Part shown: positions 50,003 to 53,716 of the stretch, one piece after another | Layout of the letters: each line of letters opens with the position of its first letter | Position numbering within the stretch: position 1 is the first letter of the stretch | DNA from: an uncultured Ruminococcus sp. | Lineage (GTDB): Bacteria > Bacillota > Clostridia > Oscillospirales > Ruminococcaceae | DNA: 64,000 bases | Assembly: GCA_902800795.1 (NCBI GenBank) | Contig: CADCFQ010000007.1 | Location: 1 to 64,000 of the forward strand | Reading direction: 5' to 3' | Notes under the pieces: generated by a model | Database searches by the model: none | Told to the model about the DNA's origin: nothing | Seen by the model: the letters and a program-made list of their open reading frames with translations, nothing else | Translations under genes and position numbers: made by a program

Positions 50003-50947
50003 ATGGCAGATTTACAGAAGAAGGCTACCAGAGAAAGCTATGGCGAGGCTCTGGCAGAGCTTGGAGATAAGTATGAGAACCTTTATGTCTTTGATGCAGA
50101 CCTTGCAGCTGCCACAAAGACAGGCATATTCAAGAAGAAGTTCCCCGAGAGACATTTCGACTGCGGTATAGCAGAGTCGAATATGATGGGCGTTGCAGCA
50201 GGAATGGCAGCAACAGGAAAGATCCCCTTTGCTTCCACCTTTGCTATGTTCGCAGCTGGAAGAGCATTCGAGCAGGTAAGAAACTCCATCGGCTATCCTC
50301 ACCTGAACGTTAAGATCGGCGCTACCCACGCTGGAATCTCCGTCGGCGAGGACGGTGCTACTCACCAGTGCAACGAGGATATCGCTCTTATGAGAACTAT
50401 CCCCGGCATGGTAGTTATAAACCCTGCTGACGATGTTGAGGCAAAGGCAGCCGTTGAGGCAGCTATCAATTACGAGGGTCCTGTTTATATGCGCTTCGGC
50501 AGACTTGCCGCTCCCATTTTCAACGATCCCGCTGCCTATAAGTTCGAGATCGGCAAGGGCATCACACTTCGTGAGGGCAAGGACATCACAATAGTTGCTA
50601 CCGGCCTTATGGTATACGAGGCGATCCAGGCAGCCGAGACACTTGCTGCCGAGGGCATCGACGCTGGTGTTATAAACATCCACACCATCAAGCCTATCGA
50701 CGAAGATCTTATTGCGGCAGCAGCTGCAAAGACAGGTCTTCTGCTGACTGTTGAAGAGCACAGCGTTATCGGCGGACTGGGTTCTGCTGTTGCCGATGTT
50801 CTGGCACAGAGACAGCCTGCAAGACTTGTAAAGATCGGTGTAAACGACGAATTCGGTCATTCCGGTCCTGCGGTAGAGCTTCTCAAGCAGTACGGTCTTT
50901 GCGCAGAGAATATCGTTGCAAAGGCAAAAGAGGCTTTAAACAAATAA
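50003..50947 (+). CDS. Transketolase, C-terminal subunit
   Basis: The 314-residue pyrimidine-binding and C-terminal half pairs with the preceding subunit. Motifs: DADLAAATKTG, 'FPERHFDCGIAESNMMGVAAGMA' (around residues 49-71), 'THAGISVGEDGATHQ', DDVEAKAAV, and the C-domain 'LLTVEEHSVIGGLGSAVADVL'. A 1-deoxyxylulose 5-phosphate synthase is a single longer chain, so the split pair reads as transketolase. Confidence 0.94.
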   Translation: MADLQKKATRESYGEALAELGDKYENLYVFDADLAAATKTGIFKKKFPERHFDCGIAESNMMGVAAGMAATGKIPFASTFAMFAAGRAFEQVRNSIGYPHLNVKIGATHAGISVGEDGATHQCNEDIALMRTIPGMVVINPADDVEAKAAVEAAINYEGPVYMRFGRLAAPIFNDPAAYKFEIGKGITLREGKDITIVATGLMVYEAIQAAETLAAEGIDAGVINIHTIKPIDEDLIAAAAAKTGLLLTVEEHSVIGGLGSAVADVLAQRQPARLVKIGVNDEFGHSGPAVELLKQYGLCAENIVAKAKEALNK

Positions 50948-50963
50948 TCTTTAAAAGCTTCTA

Positions 50964-50998
50964 AGCAGCACTGTCCGAAAAGGGCGGTGCTGCTTTTT
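50964..50998 (+). terminator. Terminator of the transketolase pair
   Basis: AGCAGCAC...GTGCTGCT hairpin followed by TTTTT, facing the minus-strand terminator at 51025-51053. Confidence 0.88.
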
Positions 50999-51024
50999 GT
51001 TGTGTATTGTGCTTTTAAAGACAA

Positions 51025-51053
51025 AAAACAGCACCCATAAGGAGTGCTGTTTT
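51025..51053 (-). terminator. Terminator of the small peptide operon
   Basis: On the minus strand, AAAACAGCAC-N9-GTGCTGTTTT gives a perfect 10-bp stem followed by a T run. Confidence 0.85.
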
Positions 51054-51197
51054 CTATCCGGCTTTGCGCCCTTTGATCTGTCTTATGGTCATGGCAGGAT
51101 CGGTCTTGCTTATCCGCTGCCTTAAAAGGCAGGGAGCGATGTGAGTGCTGTGTTTTGAGTTGATCTTTTTCTGCGCCTGTGTTATGATAGTTTTCAT
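51054..51197 (-). CDS. Small cationic peptide of unknown function (47 residues)
   Basis: An ATG at 51197 has GGGAGG at ideal spacing. The frame codes for 47 residues: MKTIITQAQKKINSKHSTHI, then a short APCLLRQRISK segment and a basic end MTIRQIKGRKAG. The peptide carries about a dozen Lys/Arg and almost no acidic residues. Its stop directly touches the terminator stem at 51025-51053. It lies 77 bp after the 63-residue peptide gene and is probably the last gene of that unit. It has no double-glycine motif. A secreted cationic peptide or a regulatory peptide are possible; neither is shown. Confidence 0.55.
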   Translation of the reverse strand: MKTIITQAQKKINSKHSTHIAPCLLRQRISKTDPAMTIRQIKGRKAG

Positions 51198-51274
51198 TGT
51201 TCGTTCCTCCCTTCAAAGATCAATAGATAGTTTTTTTATGCGTGAGTCATTCTGATCCGATGCGTGAATTCTTA

Positions 51275-51466
51275 TCAGAATAAAGGAGTGCTGCTTGCGG
51301 CGATCGCTCCGGCCGGAGCCGTCTCTCCTGCCAGCCTTTCCTCGGCCAGAGCCAGAAGCTCTGAAAGAGAATAGTTCCAGCCCCTGAACCTTGAAATGTC
51401 AACATCCTGTTTACTGCCGCCGCAGGCCTGTTCCATTATATCGATTGAAAGCGTACTGTCATCCAT
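51275..51466 (-). CDS. Small peptide with a possible double-glycine leader (63 residues)
   Basis: The 63-residue peptide starts MDDSTLSIDIMEQACGG, which fits a short leader ending in Gly-Gly, followed by a core with SRFRGWNYSLSELLALAEER and an Ala-rich end ETAPAGAIAASSTPLF. CGGAG precedes the ATG at good distance. It lies 21 bp after the 78-residue peptide gene at 51488-51724 and shares its promoter. No modification enzyme is nearby. The leader assignment is inference. Confidence 0.65.
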   Translation of the reverse strand: MDDSTLSIDIMEQACGGSKQDVDISRFRGWNYSLSELLALAEERLAGETAPAGAIAASSTPLF

Positions 51467-51487
51467 TGTTAGTCTCCGTATATTCTT

Positions 51488-51724
51488 TTATCTGAGCTTG
51501 ACATAATCGGGTTTCCACTCTCTTATTGTATCTCTGTTCCTGATTACAGGGATCCTTTGCCCGTTCATCCAGCGGTTGAGCAATTCGGGATTTATAACAG
51601 GTCCGGTTACCTGGGAAATTTCCTTCTCTTCCATTTCAAGATTTGGATAAAGGTTAGGATATACACATCCTCCGTTTACGTTCTCGAGCATATCTGCCTT
51701 GATCATTTCATTAGTCTTTTTCAT
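51488..51724 (-). CDS. Double-glycine-leader precursor peptide B (78 residues)
   Basis: MKKTNEMIKADMLENVNGG is a typical bacteriocin-type leader ending in Gly-Gly at residues 18-19. The predicted mature part of 59 residues begins CVYPNLYPNLEM, has one Cys and is rich in Arg, Trp, Tyr and Pro near the end (MNGQRIPVIRNRD, EWKPDYVKLR). AAAAGGAGG lies 8 bp before the ATG. It has its own promoter, which matches that of precursor A. Known members of this leader class are exported and cleaved by C39 peptidase ABC transporters. None is encoded in the window. The core matches no class I recognise. Confidence 0.75.
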   Translation of the reverse strand: MKKTNEMIKADMLENVNGGCVYPNLYPNLEMEEKEISQVTGPVINPELLNRWMNGQRIPVIRNRDTIREWKPDYVKLR

Positions 51725-51770
51725 ATTTATTTCCTCCTTTTGTTGTCAAGCGTTTTTTCGCTTCTGTAAT

Positions 51771-51800
51771 GTTATACGACCGAAAACAGAAAAATGGCAA
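51771..51800 (-). promoter_or_regulatory. Promoter of precursor peptide B, shared-type box
   Basis: On the minus strand, TTGCCA (51795-51800) and TATAAC (51771-51776) are separated by 18 bp. The sequence TTGCCATTTT-N11-TCGTATA is repeated with identical spacing before precursor A (52183-52212). Confidence 0.7.
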
Positions 51801-51835
51801 CTGTTCATAATTTCTTTACAAATGCGGGACTACAA

Positions 51836-51872
51836 AAATAACCGCTCCCGTCATAAAGAACAGAAGCGGTCC
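51836..51872 (-). terminator. Terminator of precursor peptide A
   Basis: On the minus strand, a hairpin with ACCGCT/AGCGGT arms extended by G-U pairs (51841-51870) is followed by ATTTTTG. Confidence 0.75.
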
Positions 51873-51883
51873 TGCTTTTTTTA

Positions 51884-52120
51884 TTATACTTTCTTTTTGA
51901 GGATCTCCCTCAGATTTTCCTTTGTGAGAGTGCCGTTATTGATAAAAGGCCTTACAGCTTCAAAGGGAAGCTGTCTCAGGGTCTCGGCAGGTATACTCAG
52001 CTGTGCGAGGATGTCTGCCTCCTTGGTCGCTGCCAGGACTCCTCCTCCCGAAATATTAGCCAGCTGCTCCTCGTCGATCTCCAGGCTCTCCAGCAGCATA
52101 TTGAACTCCTTGTCTGTCAT
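51884..52120 (-). CDS. Double-glycine-leader precursor peptide A (78 residues)
   Basis: The start at 52120 has GGAGGAG at ideal spacing; the longer frame from 52234 runs through the promoter. The peptide begins MTDKEFNMLLESLEIDEEQL and ANISGGG, an acidic helical leader ending in Gly-Gly (Gly25-Gly27), like Nif11- or NHLP-type leaders. The core of about 51 residues has no Cys (GVLAATKEADILAQLSIPAE, LRQLPFEAVRPFINNG, ENLREILKKKV). It has its own promoter and terminator. The absence of Cys argues against a lanthipeptide or ranthipeptide. Confidence 0.75.
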   Translation of the reverse strand: MTDKEFNMLLESLEIDEEQLANISGGGVLAATKEADILAQLSIPAETLRQLPFEAVRPFINNGTLTKENLREILKKKV

Positions 52121-52182
52121 TGTGATCTCCTCCTTATAAAGATACATCGCTTTATTCTTCAGAGCTTTCCGCTCTCTGTTAT

Positions 52183-52212
52183 CATATACGAAGTCACCAC
52201 GCAAAATGGCAA
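52183..52212 (-). promoter_or_regulatory. Promoter of precursor peptide A, shared-type box
   Basis: On the minus strand, TTGCCA (52207-52212) and TATATG (52183-52188) are separated by 18 bp, with the same TTGCCATTTT-N11-TCGTATA arrangement as at 51771-51800, including a following ACAG. Confidence 0.7.
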
Positions 52213-52301
52213 TAGAAAAATGAGTTTTTTTCAAAACACATTACGCAGCACAGGGACAGTAGCTCCCGGCCGCTATACAGACAAAAAAGTCATCTCCTGA
52301 T

Positions 52302-52547
52302 TTAAAGAGCCTCTTTCAGTGCCTTTGCCAGCTGGTCGGGACAGGATGTTCCTCTGCCGTTGCAGTCGATGCCTTCAAGTTTTGCGATAGCGTCGTGGAT
52401 ATTCATGCCCTCGCAGAGCCTTGAAACGCCCTGGGTGTTTCCGTTGCAGCCGCCTGTGAACTTTATCTTAGTGATAGTCTCGCCGTCAAGCTCGATATCT
52501 ATCTTCCTCGAGCATACGCCCTTGGGTGTAAAGCTGTAATTCGTCAT
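52302..52547 (-). CDS. TSCPD-domain protein
   Basis: The 81-residue protein matches the small stand-alone TSCPD family (TIGR03905-type): YSFTPKGVCSRKIDIELDG at the start, FTGGCNGNTQGVSRL in the middle and GTSCPDQLAKALKEAL at the end. The four conserved Cys may bind metal. The same domain occurs in some ribonucleotide reductases, but the function of the stand-alone protein is unknown. It overlaps the malic enzyme stop by 4 bp. Confidence 0.9.
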   Translation of the reverse strand: MTNYSFTPKGVCSRKIDIELDGETITKIKFTGGCNGNTQGVSRLCEGMNIHDAIAKLEGIDCNGRGTSCPDQLAKALKEAL

Positions 52548-53716
52548 ATCCTTGCAACTCCTGATTCTCTTGCAGCCTCGGCAACAGCCTCAGCCACCTT
52601 GATCGAAACGTTTCTGTCAAATGCGTTGGGCAGGATGAAATCAACGCTCAGCTGCTCGTCGCTCACACAATCAGCGATAGCTCTTGCAGCAGCCAGCTTC
52701 ATCTCCTCGTTTATGTCGGAGGCTCTTACCGCAAGAGCGCCCTTGAAGATGCCGGGGAAAGCAACGACGTTGTTTATCTGGTTCGGGAAATCCGAACGTC
52801 CTGTACCCACAATATAAGCGCCTGCTGCCTTTGCTTTATCAGGCATGATCTCGGGAACGGGGTTTGACATAGCGAAGATAAAAGGCTTGTCGTTCATGCT
52901 ATTTACCATCTCTGGAGTAACGAGATCGGGCTTAGAAACGCCGACAAACACATCAGCGCCCTTCATAGCGTCCGCAAGGCCGCCTCTGAGGTGCTCACGG
53001 TTAGTGATCTTAGCCATTTCAGCCTGTGCAGGGTTCTTTATGTCGTCGCCCTCACAGATTATGCCCTTGGAGTTGAGCATAATGATATCCTTGACGCCAA
53101 GGTCAAGCAAAAACTTAGCGATAGCGCAGCCTGCCGCACCGGCACCGCTCATAACGACCTTGAGCTCGCCTATCTTTCTGCCTGTCAGCTTGCAGGCATT
53201 GAGCATAGCGGCGCCCACAACGATAGCAGTACCGTGCTGGTCATCGTGGAATACGGGGATATCAAGTCTCTCCTTGAGCTTTGCCTCGATCTCAAAGCAT
53301 CTGGGAGCAGCGATATCCTCAAGGTTGATACCGCCGAAGCTTCCTGCGATATGAGCGATAGTATCAACGATAGTGTCAACGTCATTAGTGTCAAGGCAGA
53401 TCGGGAAGGCGTCAACATCAGCAAACGCCTTGAACAGCGCACATTTGCCTTCCATAACGGGCATACCTGCCAGTCCGCCTATATCACCAAGTCCTAATAC
53501 AGCGGAGCCGTCGGTGATAACAGCAACAAGGTTAGCTCTTCTTGTCAGCTCATAGGACAGTGTGGGGTCCTTCTCGATCTCGAGACAGGGCTGTGCGACA
53601 CCGGGAGTATAAGCAAGGGTAAGGTCTTTTGCGTTCTCGATCTTAGTCCTTGTAACGACCTCGATCTTGCCCTTCCATTCCTTATGCAGCTGCAAAGATT
53701 CTTCCATAACGTTCAT
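52544..53716 (-). CDS. NAD(P)-dependent malic enzyme
   Basis: The enzyme decarboxylates malate to pyruvate. The 390-residue short bacterial form has LAYTPGVAQPC, 'ITDGSAVLGLGDIGGLAGMPVMEGK' (around residues 69-93), the metal motif 'PVFHDDQHGTAIV' and the Rossmann loop MSGAGAAGCAIAKFL. A promoter lies upstream on the minus strand. The TSCPD gene is translationally coupled to its 3' end. Confidence 0.95.
   Translation of the reverse strand: MNVMEESLQLHKEWKGKIEVVTRTKIENAKDLTLAYTPGVAQPCLEIEKDPTLSYELTRRANLVAVITDGSAVLGLGDIGGLAGMPVMEGKCALFKAFADVDAFPICLDTNDVDTIVDTIAHIAGSFGGINLEDIAAPRCFEIEAKLKERLDIPVFHDDQHGTAIVVGAAMLNACKLTGRKIGELKVVMSGAGAAGCAIAKFLLDLGVKDIIMLNSKGIICEGDDIKNPAQAEMAKITNREHLRGGLADAMKGADVFVGVSKPDLVTPEMVNSMNDKPFIFAMSNPVPEIMPDKAKAAGAYIVGTGRSDFPNQINNVVAFPGIFKGALAVRASDINEEMKLAAARAIADCVSDEQLSVDFILPNAFDRNVSIKVAEAVAEAARESGVARI

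Follow-up and report, generated by a model that had tools for sequence, protein, structure and literature searches.

A promoter-like site shared by double-glycine small proteins and an ECF sigma operon in an uncultured Ruminococcus: a candidate dispersed regulon with predicted export in trans

Four small genes of the minus strand, here called P1 to P4, lie between a TSCPD gene and a transketolase gene in a stretch of 64,000 nucleotides from an uncultured Ruminococcus sp. (the window). A sequence-only reading had described them as an orphan cluster of double-glycine-leader peptides with neither a transporter nor a modifying enzyme nearby. How are genes of this kind switched on, and by which route could their products leave the cell? 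The explanation that we regard as quite probable is that P1-P3 belong to a dispersed regulon of double-glycine small proteins under an ECF sigma factor encoded on contig C9. They are predicted to be cleaved after the GG and to be exported in trans by an ABC exporter encoded on contig C3. This explanation is based on comparisons of sequences in the window, in the rest of its genome (G000) and in related genomes.

Four small genes and their leaders

Direct reading of the open reading frames confirmed the four small minus-strand genes (Table 1), which are flanked by the TSCPD gene (52547-52302, minus strand) and the transketolase C-terminal gene (50003-50947, plus strand). Ribosome-binding sites had been called strong throughout; this is true of P1, P2 and P4, whereas that of P3 is moderate. 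The longest frame of P1 comprises 116 aa from a TTG, and the ribosome-binding site belongs to the 78-aa form. The proposed terminators were recovered as terminator-like hairpins downstream of P1 and P4, the latter being absent from the terminator-scan listing. P2 and P3 are separated by 21 nt with no fold, P3 and P4 by 77 nt with a weak fold only. Together the hairpins and the gaps make it likely that P1 is one unit and P2-P3-P4 another. An Rfam scan of positions 50500-53000 gave zero matches.

Table 1. Features of the P1-P4 region (positions in the window)
Feature	Position	Strand	Description
P1 promoter-like site	52185..52212	-	TTGCCATTT-N12-TCGTATA, 0 mismatches; R1 E 1.3e-8; site in R1 training set
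P1	ATG 52120 to stop 51884	-	78 aa; leader MTDKEFNMLLESLEIDEEQLANISGG, predicted cut point ...LANISGG/G
Terminator-like hairpin 3' of P1	51840..51871	-	terminator scan and fold
P2-P3-P4 promoter-like site	51773..51800	-	0 mismatches; R1 E 1.9e-9; site in R1 training set
P2	51724-51488	-	78 aa; leader MKKTNEMIKADMLENVNGG, predicted cut point ...LENVNGG/C
P3	51466-51275	-	63 aa; leader MDDSTLSIDIMEQACGG, predicted cut point ...MEQACGG/S; core without Cys
P4	51197-51054	-	47-aa basic candidate ORF, strong ribosome-binding site, no double-glycine leader
Terminator-like hairpin with T run 3' of P4	51024..51053	-	fold, -25.0 kcal/mol for the stretch folded

The leaders were scored with a profile of 12 residues, whose 15 training leaders came from this genome outside the window and from other genomes. 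It was run on the 197 ORFs in the window that have 35-150 aa and a preceding Shine-Dalgarno sequence. P2 (23.6), P1 (17.3) and P3 (17.3) took ranks 1-3, followed by an ORF with a score of 9.0; P4 scored -8.0. This bears out the GG leaders claimed for the two 78-residue peptides and the EQACGG leader of the third. Curated leader models, which had been suggested as a check, responded weakly to P1-P4. No match was obtained with the NHLP precursor model TIGR03793 or the Nif11 models TIGR03798/PF07862 (Pfam and NCBIfam at E<=10, with filters that drop most matches above 0.1). The bacteriocin signal TIGR01847 (cut-off 15.7) gave 13.7 bits for P1 by hmmscan and 15.7 bits, marked as over the cut-off, in the genome search, 11.2 bits for P2 and no match for P3. 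In LahT, as described in excerpts of PMC6363468, the groove of the C39 domain seats leader positions -12, -7 and -4. These positions hold I/L/I in P1, I/L/V in P2 and L/M/A in P3, so that all three have the hydrophobic residues that would be expected of a PCAT substrate.

Behind the predicted cut points the cores contain zero or one Cys, as had been observed before: the 52-aa core of P1 has none, and the sole Cys of P2 is its first core residue. Could P1-P3 nevertheless be RiPP precursors that are modified in trans, by an enzyme encoded elsewhere (of the lanthipeptide or radical SAM type, for example), and then exported? NHLP/Nif11-type leaders are often found on modified peptides and modification genes can be distant (extracts of PMC2887384). 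The scarcity of Cys argues against this idea, as does the nature of the other cores of the set described below, which are LysM domains or Cys-rich zinc-ribbon-like stretches. Moreover, among the ORFs near the exporter or the sigma gene, part of which were run against family libraries, a modifying enzyme could not be recognised. We therefore consider modified precursors improbable.

The promoter-like site and the genes behind it

The pattern TTGCCATTT-N12-TCGTATA was written from three upstream regions, those of P1, P2 and a P1-like gene in the related genome G001. The 2.5 Mb of G000 contain five exact copies and one copy with one mismatch; a further copy has two mismatches, and 42 have three. 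When reversed, the pattern gave a total of 39 copies at up to three mismatches (not split further by mismatch number), with one at up to one mismatch. Consequently the three-mismatch copies are background, while the six copies with at most one mismatch stand out. Across 29 genomes of the genus, copies with at most one mismatch numbered six in G000, six in G025, five in G001 and five in the remaining 26 genomes together, against four for the reversed pattern in all 29. The five single matches in the other genomes were rejected, since none of them has a GG gene behind it.

A 48-nt sequence model, R1, was made from 17 training sites and used to score 150 first-look candidates per genome, so that weak sites may be missed. 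At E<1e-4 it gave 20 sites in the 29 genomes (eight in G000, seven in G025 and five in G001), and the best match below these was partial (E 8e-4). Seventeen of the 20 are the training sites themselves. One of the others, C13:2445, is identical in sequence to a training site of G025, and C8:87539 corresponds in position to the G025 training site on C123. This leaves G025:C72, which is neither a training site nor a copy nor an orthologue of one and which precedes a gene for a 97-aa double-glycine protein.

Two features of the sites deserve mention in their own right. Many sites run on after TCGTATA into ACAGAG-N-GGCAAAA in the alignment, the GGCAA mirroring the TTGCC of the -35 side at a distance of about 30 nt. 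The site at C8:87539 (L106:1501-1640) is kept at G025:C123 (L129), in both genomes with no ORF close downstream; an inverted repeat follows within about 140 nt and then a NUDIX gene. It is possible, to judge from this arrangement, that the element encodes a small RNA of the same regulon.

What stands behind the sites? The first seven sites of G000 precede P1, P2, a gene run on C13 (two sites), an operon on C9, a gene for a 292-aa protein on C1 and one for a 120-aa protein on C23. The C13 run consists of three double-glycine genes, and two of the three cores match LysM. These two genes are adjacent (L109:1243-1835; Pfam LysM 41.9 and 32.9 bits), and LysM is an unusual cargo for a C39 exporter. 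The C9 operon comprises two small ORFs with AAG-ending segments (AA proteins) and the ECF sigma gene. Site-led genes of G025 and G001 encode Cys-rich zinc-ribbon-like GG proteins ahead of genes for AA proteins and the sigma factor, GG-LysM proteins, a Cys-rich protein with the sequence NDLENVNGG, two more GG proteins, a relative of P1 and proteins resembling those of C1 and C23. A further site-led gene, on contig C83 of G001 (L117:26-1441), specifies a protein of 472 aa that has a double-glycine leader and resembles YigZ/IMPACT in its C-terminal region (65.5 bits, short of the cut-off of that model). If the two C13 sites are counted as one unit, a double-glycine gene is present in 11 of the 19 site-led units of G000, G001 and G025. 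The eight units without one are that of C9, with its AA and sigma genes, and seven with neither.

The leaders were also surveyed in the opposite direction, with a profile (A2) of 20 leaders, including those of P1-P3, that was run over eight genomes. In G000 there were six matches at E<0.005, namely P1, P2, P3 and the three genes of C13. The next was C14:11347 (E 0.65), followed by a match of E 3.4 inside a 698-aa frame. The C14 ORF comprises 93 aa with the motif INGG and a Cys-rich core resembling that of G025:C91. Just 5' of it lies a weak R1 site (C14:11463-11507; E 0.10, four mismatches to the pattern). All seven double-glycine genes found in G000 thus stand behind sites, that of C14 resting on the meeting of two weak signals. 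Since most of the leaders in A2 came from site-led genes, the census shows that no similar leader was found elsewhere and is not an independent proof. The term orphan was nevertheless misplaced: P1 and P2 have a promoter-like site in common with the double-glycine genes of C13, with that of C14 (in weaker form) and with the ECF sigma operon of C9.

Sigma factor, exporter and their joint occurrence

The C9 sigma factor has 160 aa and is of the ECF type, with Sigma70_r2 (66.7 bits) and Sigma70_r4 (46.9 bits) both over their cut-offs. Near its gene are encoded a 713-aa dCache-SpoIIE protein, an HATPase_c_2 protein and a STAS protein. At E<=1e-25 the sigma factor was found in three of the 29 genus genomes, and these three (G000, G025 and G001) are the same that have sites at E<1e-4; since they may be sisters, the co-occurrence is not independent evidence. 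Completeness is 97% for G000, 85% for G001 (7% contaminated) and 80% for G025. It is likely that P1-P3 are switched together by the C9 sigma factor, because copies of the site precede them, the other double-glycine genes and the sigma operon itself.

A housekeeping sigma factor or a DNA-binding regulator might read the site instead of the C9 sigma factor, with export via C3 unchanged. TTGCCA and the TATA-like stretches do resemble sigma-70 boxes, and the GGCAAAA stretch of several sites forms with TTGCC an inverted repeat, a possible target for a regulator. The restriction of strong sites to the genomes that possess the sigma factor speaks against such a reader, as does the position of the sigma operon behind a site. 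In addition, the CGTATA block is invariant in the site alignment and fits ECF -10 elements, and a simple sigma-70 scan did not include these sites among its matches. On balance we judge a different reader of the site to be unlikely and take the C9 sigma factor as the candidate.

No transporter lies beside P1-P4, as had been stated, and the sequence-only reading had made its proposal depend on a C39-type transporter elsewhere in the genome. A single C39 peptidase match was found in the 2.5-Mb G000 (C3:23523-23912; E<=0.001), so that maturation in trans is possible. The 726-aa protein concerned matches NHLM_micro_ABC1 (TIGR03796) with 915.1 bits against a cut-off of 853.3, and its ABC2 neighbour passes NHLM_micro_ABC2 (TIGR03797) narrowly (710.8 against 709.4 bits). 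The HlyD-like protein of the locus is a stub of 140 aa which covers positions 1-53 of the 421 in TIGR03794 and remains below the cut-off (22.5 against 156.2 bits). By hand count in the translation, the C39 residues Q22, C28, H102 and D118 are spaced like Q21, C27, H101 and D117, the residues named for the C39 domain of LahT in excerpts of PMC6363468. The exporter locus also encodes paralogues of the C9 neighbours: the HATPase proteins are 53% identical, the STAS proteins 46% and a pair of 184/198 aa 35%. No promoter-like site was found before the exporter operon, where scores (L002) were at most 9 as against 33.8-65.0 for the 17 training sites.

Elsewhere in the genus the parts occur in other combinations. 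G026 has neither the sigma factor nor a strong site, an NHLM_micro_ABC1 match over the cut-off or a leader below E 2; identity of the malic enzyme is 93% for G026 and 92% for G001. Five genomes (G002, G003, G009, G010 and G024) have NHLM_micro_ABC1 over the cut-off without the sigma factor. G019, which likewise has no sigma factor and no sites, possesses leader genes and part of an exporter. On contig C5 of G009 (L067:12683-13156) a different ECF sigma factor (33% identical) and an AA-ending small protein are encoded beside an NHLM-type exporter. The exporter locus of G024 brings together homologues of the STAS, HATPase, SpoIIE and 198-aa proteins.

At E<=1e-28 the sigma factor occurs in eight of the 394 genomes sampled from the order, G000 among them, and loci of 3.5 to 18 kb around its gene were inspected in the seven others. 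Six of the seven combine in one locus the sigma gene, homologues of the C3 ABC genes and one to eight leader genes (two of these loci are cut by a contig end). The distant leader genes were those with a leader-profile score of at least 13; none had been in the training set, and the one in G413 ends in GA. Homologues of the partner-switch proteins (SpoIIE, HATPase or STAS) are encoded in three of the six joined loci, those of G315, G413 and G316. The locus of G315 runs from SpoIIE and HATPase through short HlyD, ABC1 and ABC2 to eight leader genes, the AA protein and sigma. In the seventh genome, G335, the sigma gene lacks these other parts within 18 kb. Among the best 80 of 578 matches in genome_contigs there were two further relatives of the sigma factor, the other 78 being at most 38% identical: one from the Clostridia bacterium RGIG2571 (50%), with an AA protein and no exporter homologue in 12.5 kb, and one from an uncultured Lachnospiraceae bacterium (51%), with the sigma gene only. 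Bipartite sites could be recognised in part of the order-level loci. In G293, sites resembling GCGATTT-N11-TCGTATA precede both the AA protein gene and a GG gene; G316 has a related site before its AA-sigma operon and G315 a looser one 220 nt before the first leader gene. A search for a repeated bipartite motif in the remaining order-level loci gave nothing convincing. To judge from these sequences, a single locus is most likely the commoner arrangement, and in G000 the cargo genes lie scattered and have the promoter-like site in common.

The AA proteins carry a leader-like segment that ends in AAG and not in GG (L108:8890-9293 and relatives). Their gene adjoins the sigma gene in G000, G001, G025, RGIG2571 and six of the seven order-level genomes, that of G420 having been read from a translated frame. 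The AA proteins are possibly anti-sigma factors or signals. A bolder idea suggested by their position and sequence, and in our opinion rather unlikely, is that the AA protein acts as an anti-sigma factor that is itself exported: it would hold the sigma factor back until assembly of the exporter, and its exit through that exporter by means of the AAG segment would free the sigma factor to make double-glycine cargo. FlgM provides the analogy of a checkpoint based on the export of an anti-sigma factor. If true, a FlgM-like checkpoint would be built into an ABC exporter and would control P1-P3 from a distance.

The AA proteins also bear on the question whether the double-glycine proteins leave the cell at all. 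If the leader-like segments were interaction helices of intracellular regulators, the similar AAG-ending segment of proteins that are conserved with the sigma factor would be accounted for, and so would the lack of a leader in P4. Against this stand the spacing of the leader residues, which suits recognition by C39, the leader genes that share loci with exporter homologues in six of the seven distant genomes, and the cores behind like leaders, which are mutually unrelated. Retention in the cell thus appears quite improbable. For an exported cargo the following sequence of events can be envisaged. A signal sensed by the Cache/SpoIIE protein would be relayed by the HATPase and STAS proteins and so release the C9 sigma factor, which would read TTGCCATTT-N12-TCGTATA. 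P2, P3 and P4 would be made from one transcript. The C39 domain would hold the leader helix via the hydrophobic positions -12, -7 and -4 and cut after the GG, and the cores would then exit the cell.

Conservation, possible roles and relation to known systems

Poor conservation in related strains had been feared, and conservation is indeed narrow: among 28 TSCPD loci in 27 genomes of the genus, a GG ORF behind TSCPD occurs in G000 and G001 only. G026 keeps the order malic enzyme-TSCPD-transketolase with a spacer that is free of peptide genes. The contig of G001 ends within the P1-like gene (L032) and that of G019 14 nt past TSCPD (L033), which suggests that the spacer between the TSCPD and transketolase genes may be hard to assemble. 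In 5.8 billion sequences P1 has relatives in four protein clusters at E<=1, of which one is a 56-aa fragment, and P2 in three; for P3 there are two clusters. The GG is kept in all four P1 variants and is followed by R in three; in general both the GG and the greater part of the reading frame are preserved among the variants. The core of the P1-like protein of G001 diverges from P1 directly after the GG. Few clusters, this divergence and the absence from G026 make P1 and P2 look young or fast-changing in sequence. No relatives of P1 were found in genome_contigs, phages or viral contigs and none of P2 in plasmids, so that an origin from phages or plasmids is not supported. From a search of 61 genomes with P1 and P2 the weak matches were set aside (18 with E>=0.002, most of them inside long frames, and 12 with E>=0.04); the G001 leader alone was kept (E 5e-6). 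AlphaFold models of P1 (pLDDT 60.7) and P2 (53.5) were too poor for a structure search.

With so few relatives, and an empty spacer at the same place in G026, it might be thought that P1-P4 are decaying or chance ORFs without function. Such ORFs would hardly be expected to combine shared promoter-like sites, ribosome-binding sites, hairpins and the top-ranked leaders of the window, nor would one expect to see the GG and a largely intact frame preserved in their variants. We regard this as very improbable indeed.

As to what exported cores would do, antagonists or cell-wall-associated small proteins are most likely the roles to be favoured. The small number of clusters, the divergence of the core behind a kept GG and the absence from G026 form a pattern that suits antagonistic peptides. 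Other cores of the set, of the LysM or zinc-ribbon-like kind, suit wall-associated roles too. That the cores act outside the cell as fast-changing, bacteriocin-like antagonists is a tentative suggestion, which we would put at somewhat below an even chance. No immunity gene was recognised; P4 is a candidate by virtue of its position alone.

It is easy to label double-glycine genes as orphans when they are scattered. Here a promoter-like sequence ties them to each other and to a regulator, and distant genomes hold like parts in one locus with homologues of the exporter. The promoter rather than the leader could therefore serve as a route to unannotated secreted small proteins in relatives, as in the one blind match, G025:C72. 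It also makes the control of an NHLP-type exporter testable. If secreted, the LysM and zinc-ribbon-like cores would widen the known cargo range of such exporters.

The NHLP/Nif11 exporter (TIGR03794/TIGR03796/TIGR03797) and its link with Gly-Gly precursors were described by Haft et al. (2010), and substrates encoded far from modification and export genes had already been reported there (excerpts of PMC2887384). The system described here resembles it in the pair of ABC1 (with a C39 peptidase) and ABC2, in the Gly-Gly ends of the leaders and in the variable cores. It differs in that the leaders of P1-P3 are 17-26 aa long and match neither the NHase-like nor the Nif11 models, that the HlyD partner in G000 is a stub, and that the substrates have in common a promoter-like site and a candidate regulator, the ECF sigma factor. 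No co-mention of NHLP and sigma factor was found in the openly licensed PMC literature. Likewise, no NHLP-type exporter joined to an ECF sigma factor was found among the matches listed for openly licensed PMC titles and the beginnings of abstracts, the ECF classification literature aside. Partner-switching terms are absent from PMC8999054, and the excerpts of PMC4289311 and PMC13289728 contain no link to ECF factors. Exporter type and scattered substrates are thus known, and their link to an ECF sigma factor is new as far as we could find.

Similarities extend to other PCAT systems. LahT of Lachnospiraceae (excerpts of PMC6363468) has the same spacing of C39 residues and the hydrophobic positions -12, -7 and -4. 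LahT belongs to a lanthipeptide operon, whereas here the substrates are scattered and none of the ORFs in the loci examined was recognised as a modifying enzyme. In the pneumococcal blp and rtg systems, GG peptides are likewise under common control with a PCAT exporter (excerpts of PMC4739728 and PMC7018657). According to these sources, blp is tied to the competence system and rtg to an Rgg regulator, whereas the candidate in this Ruminococcus is an ECF sigma factor together with partner-switch genes.
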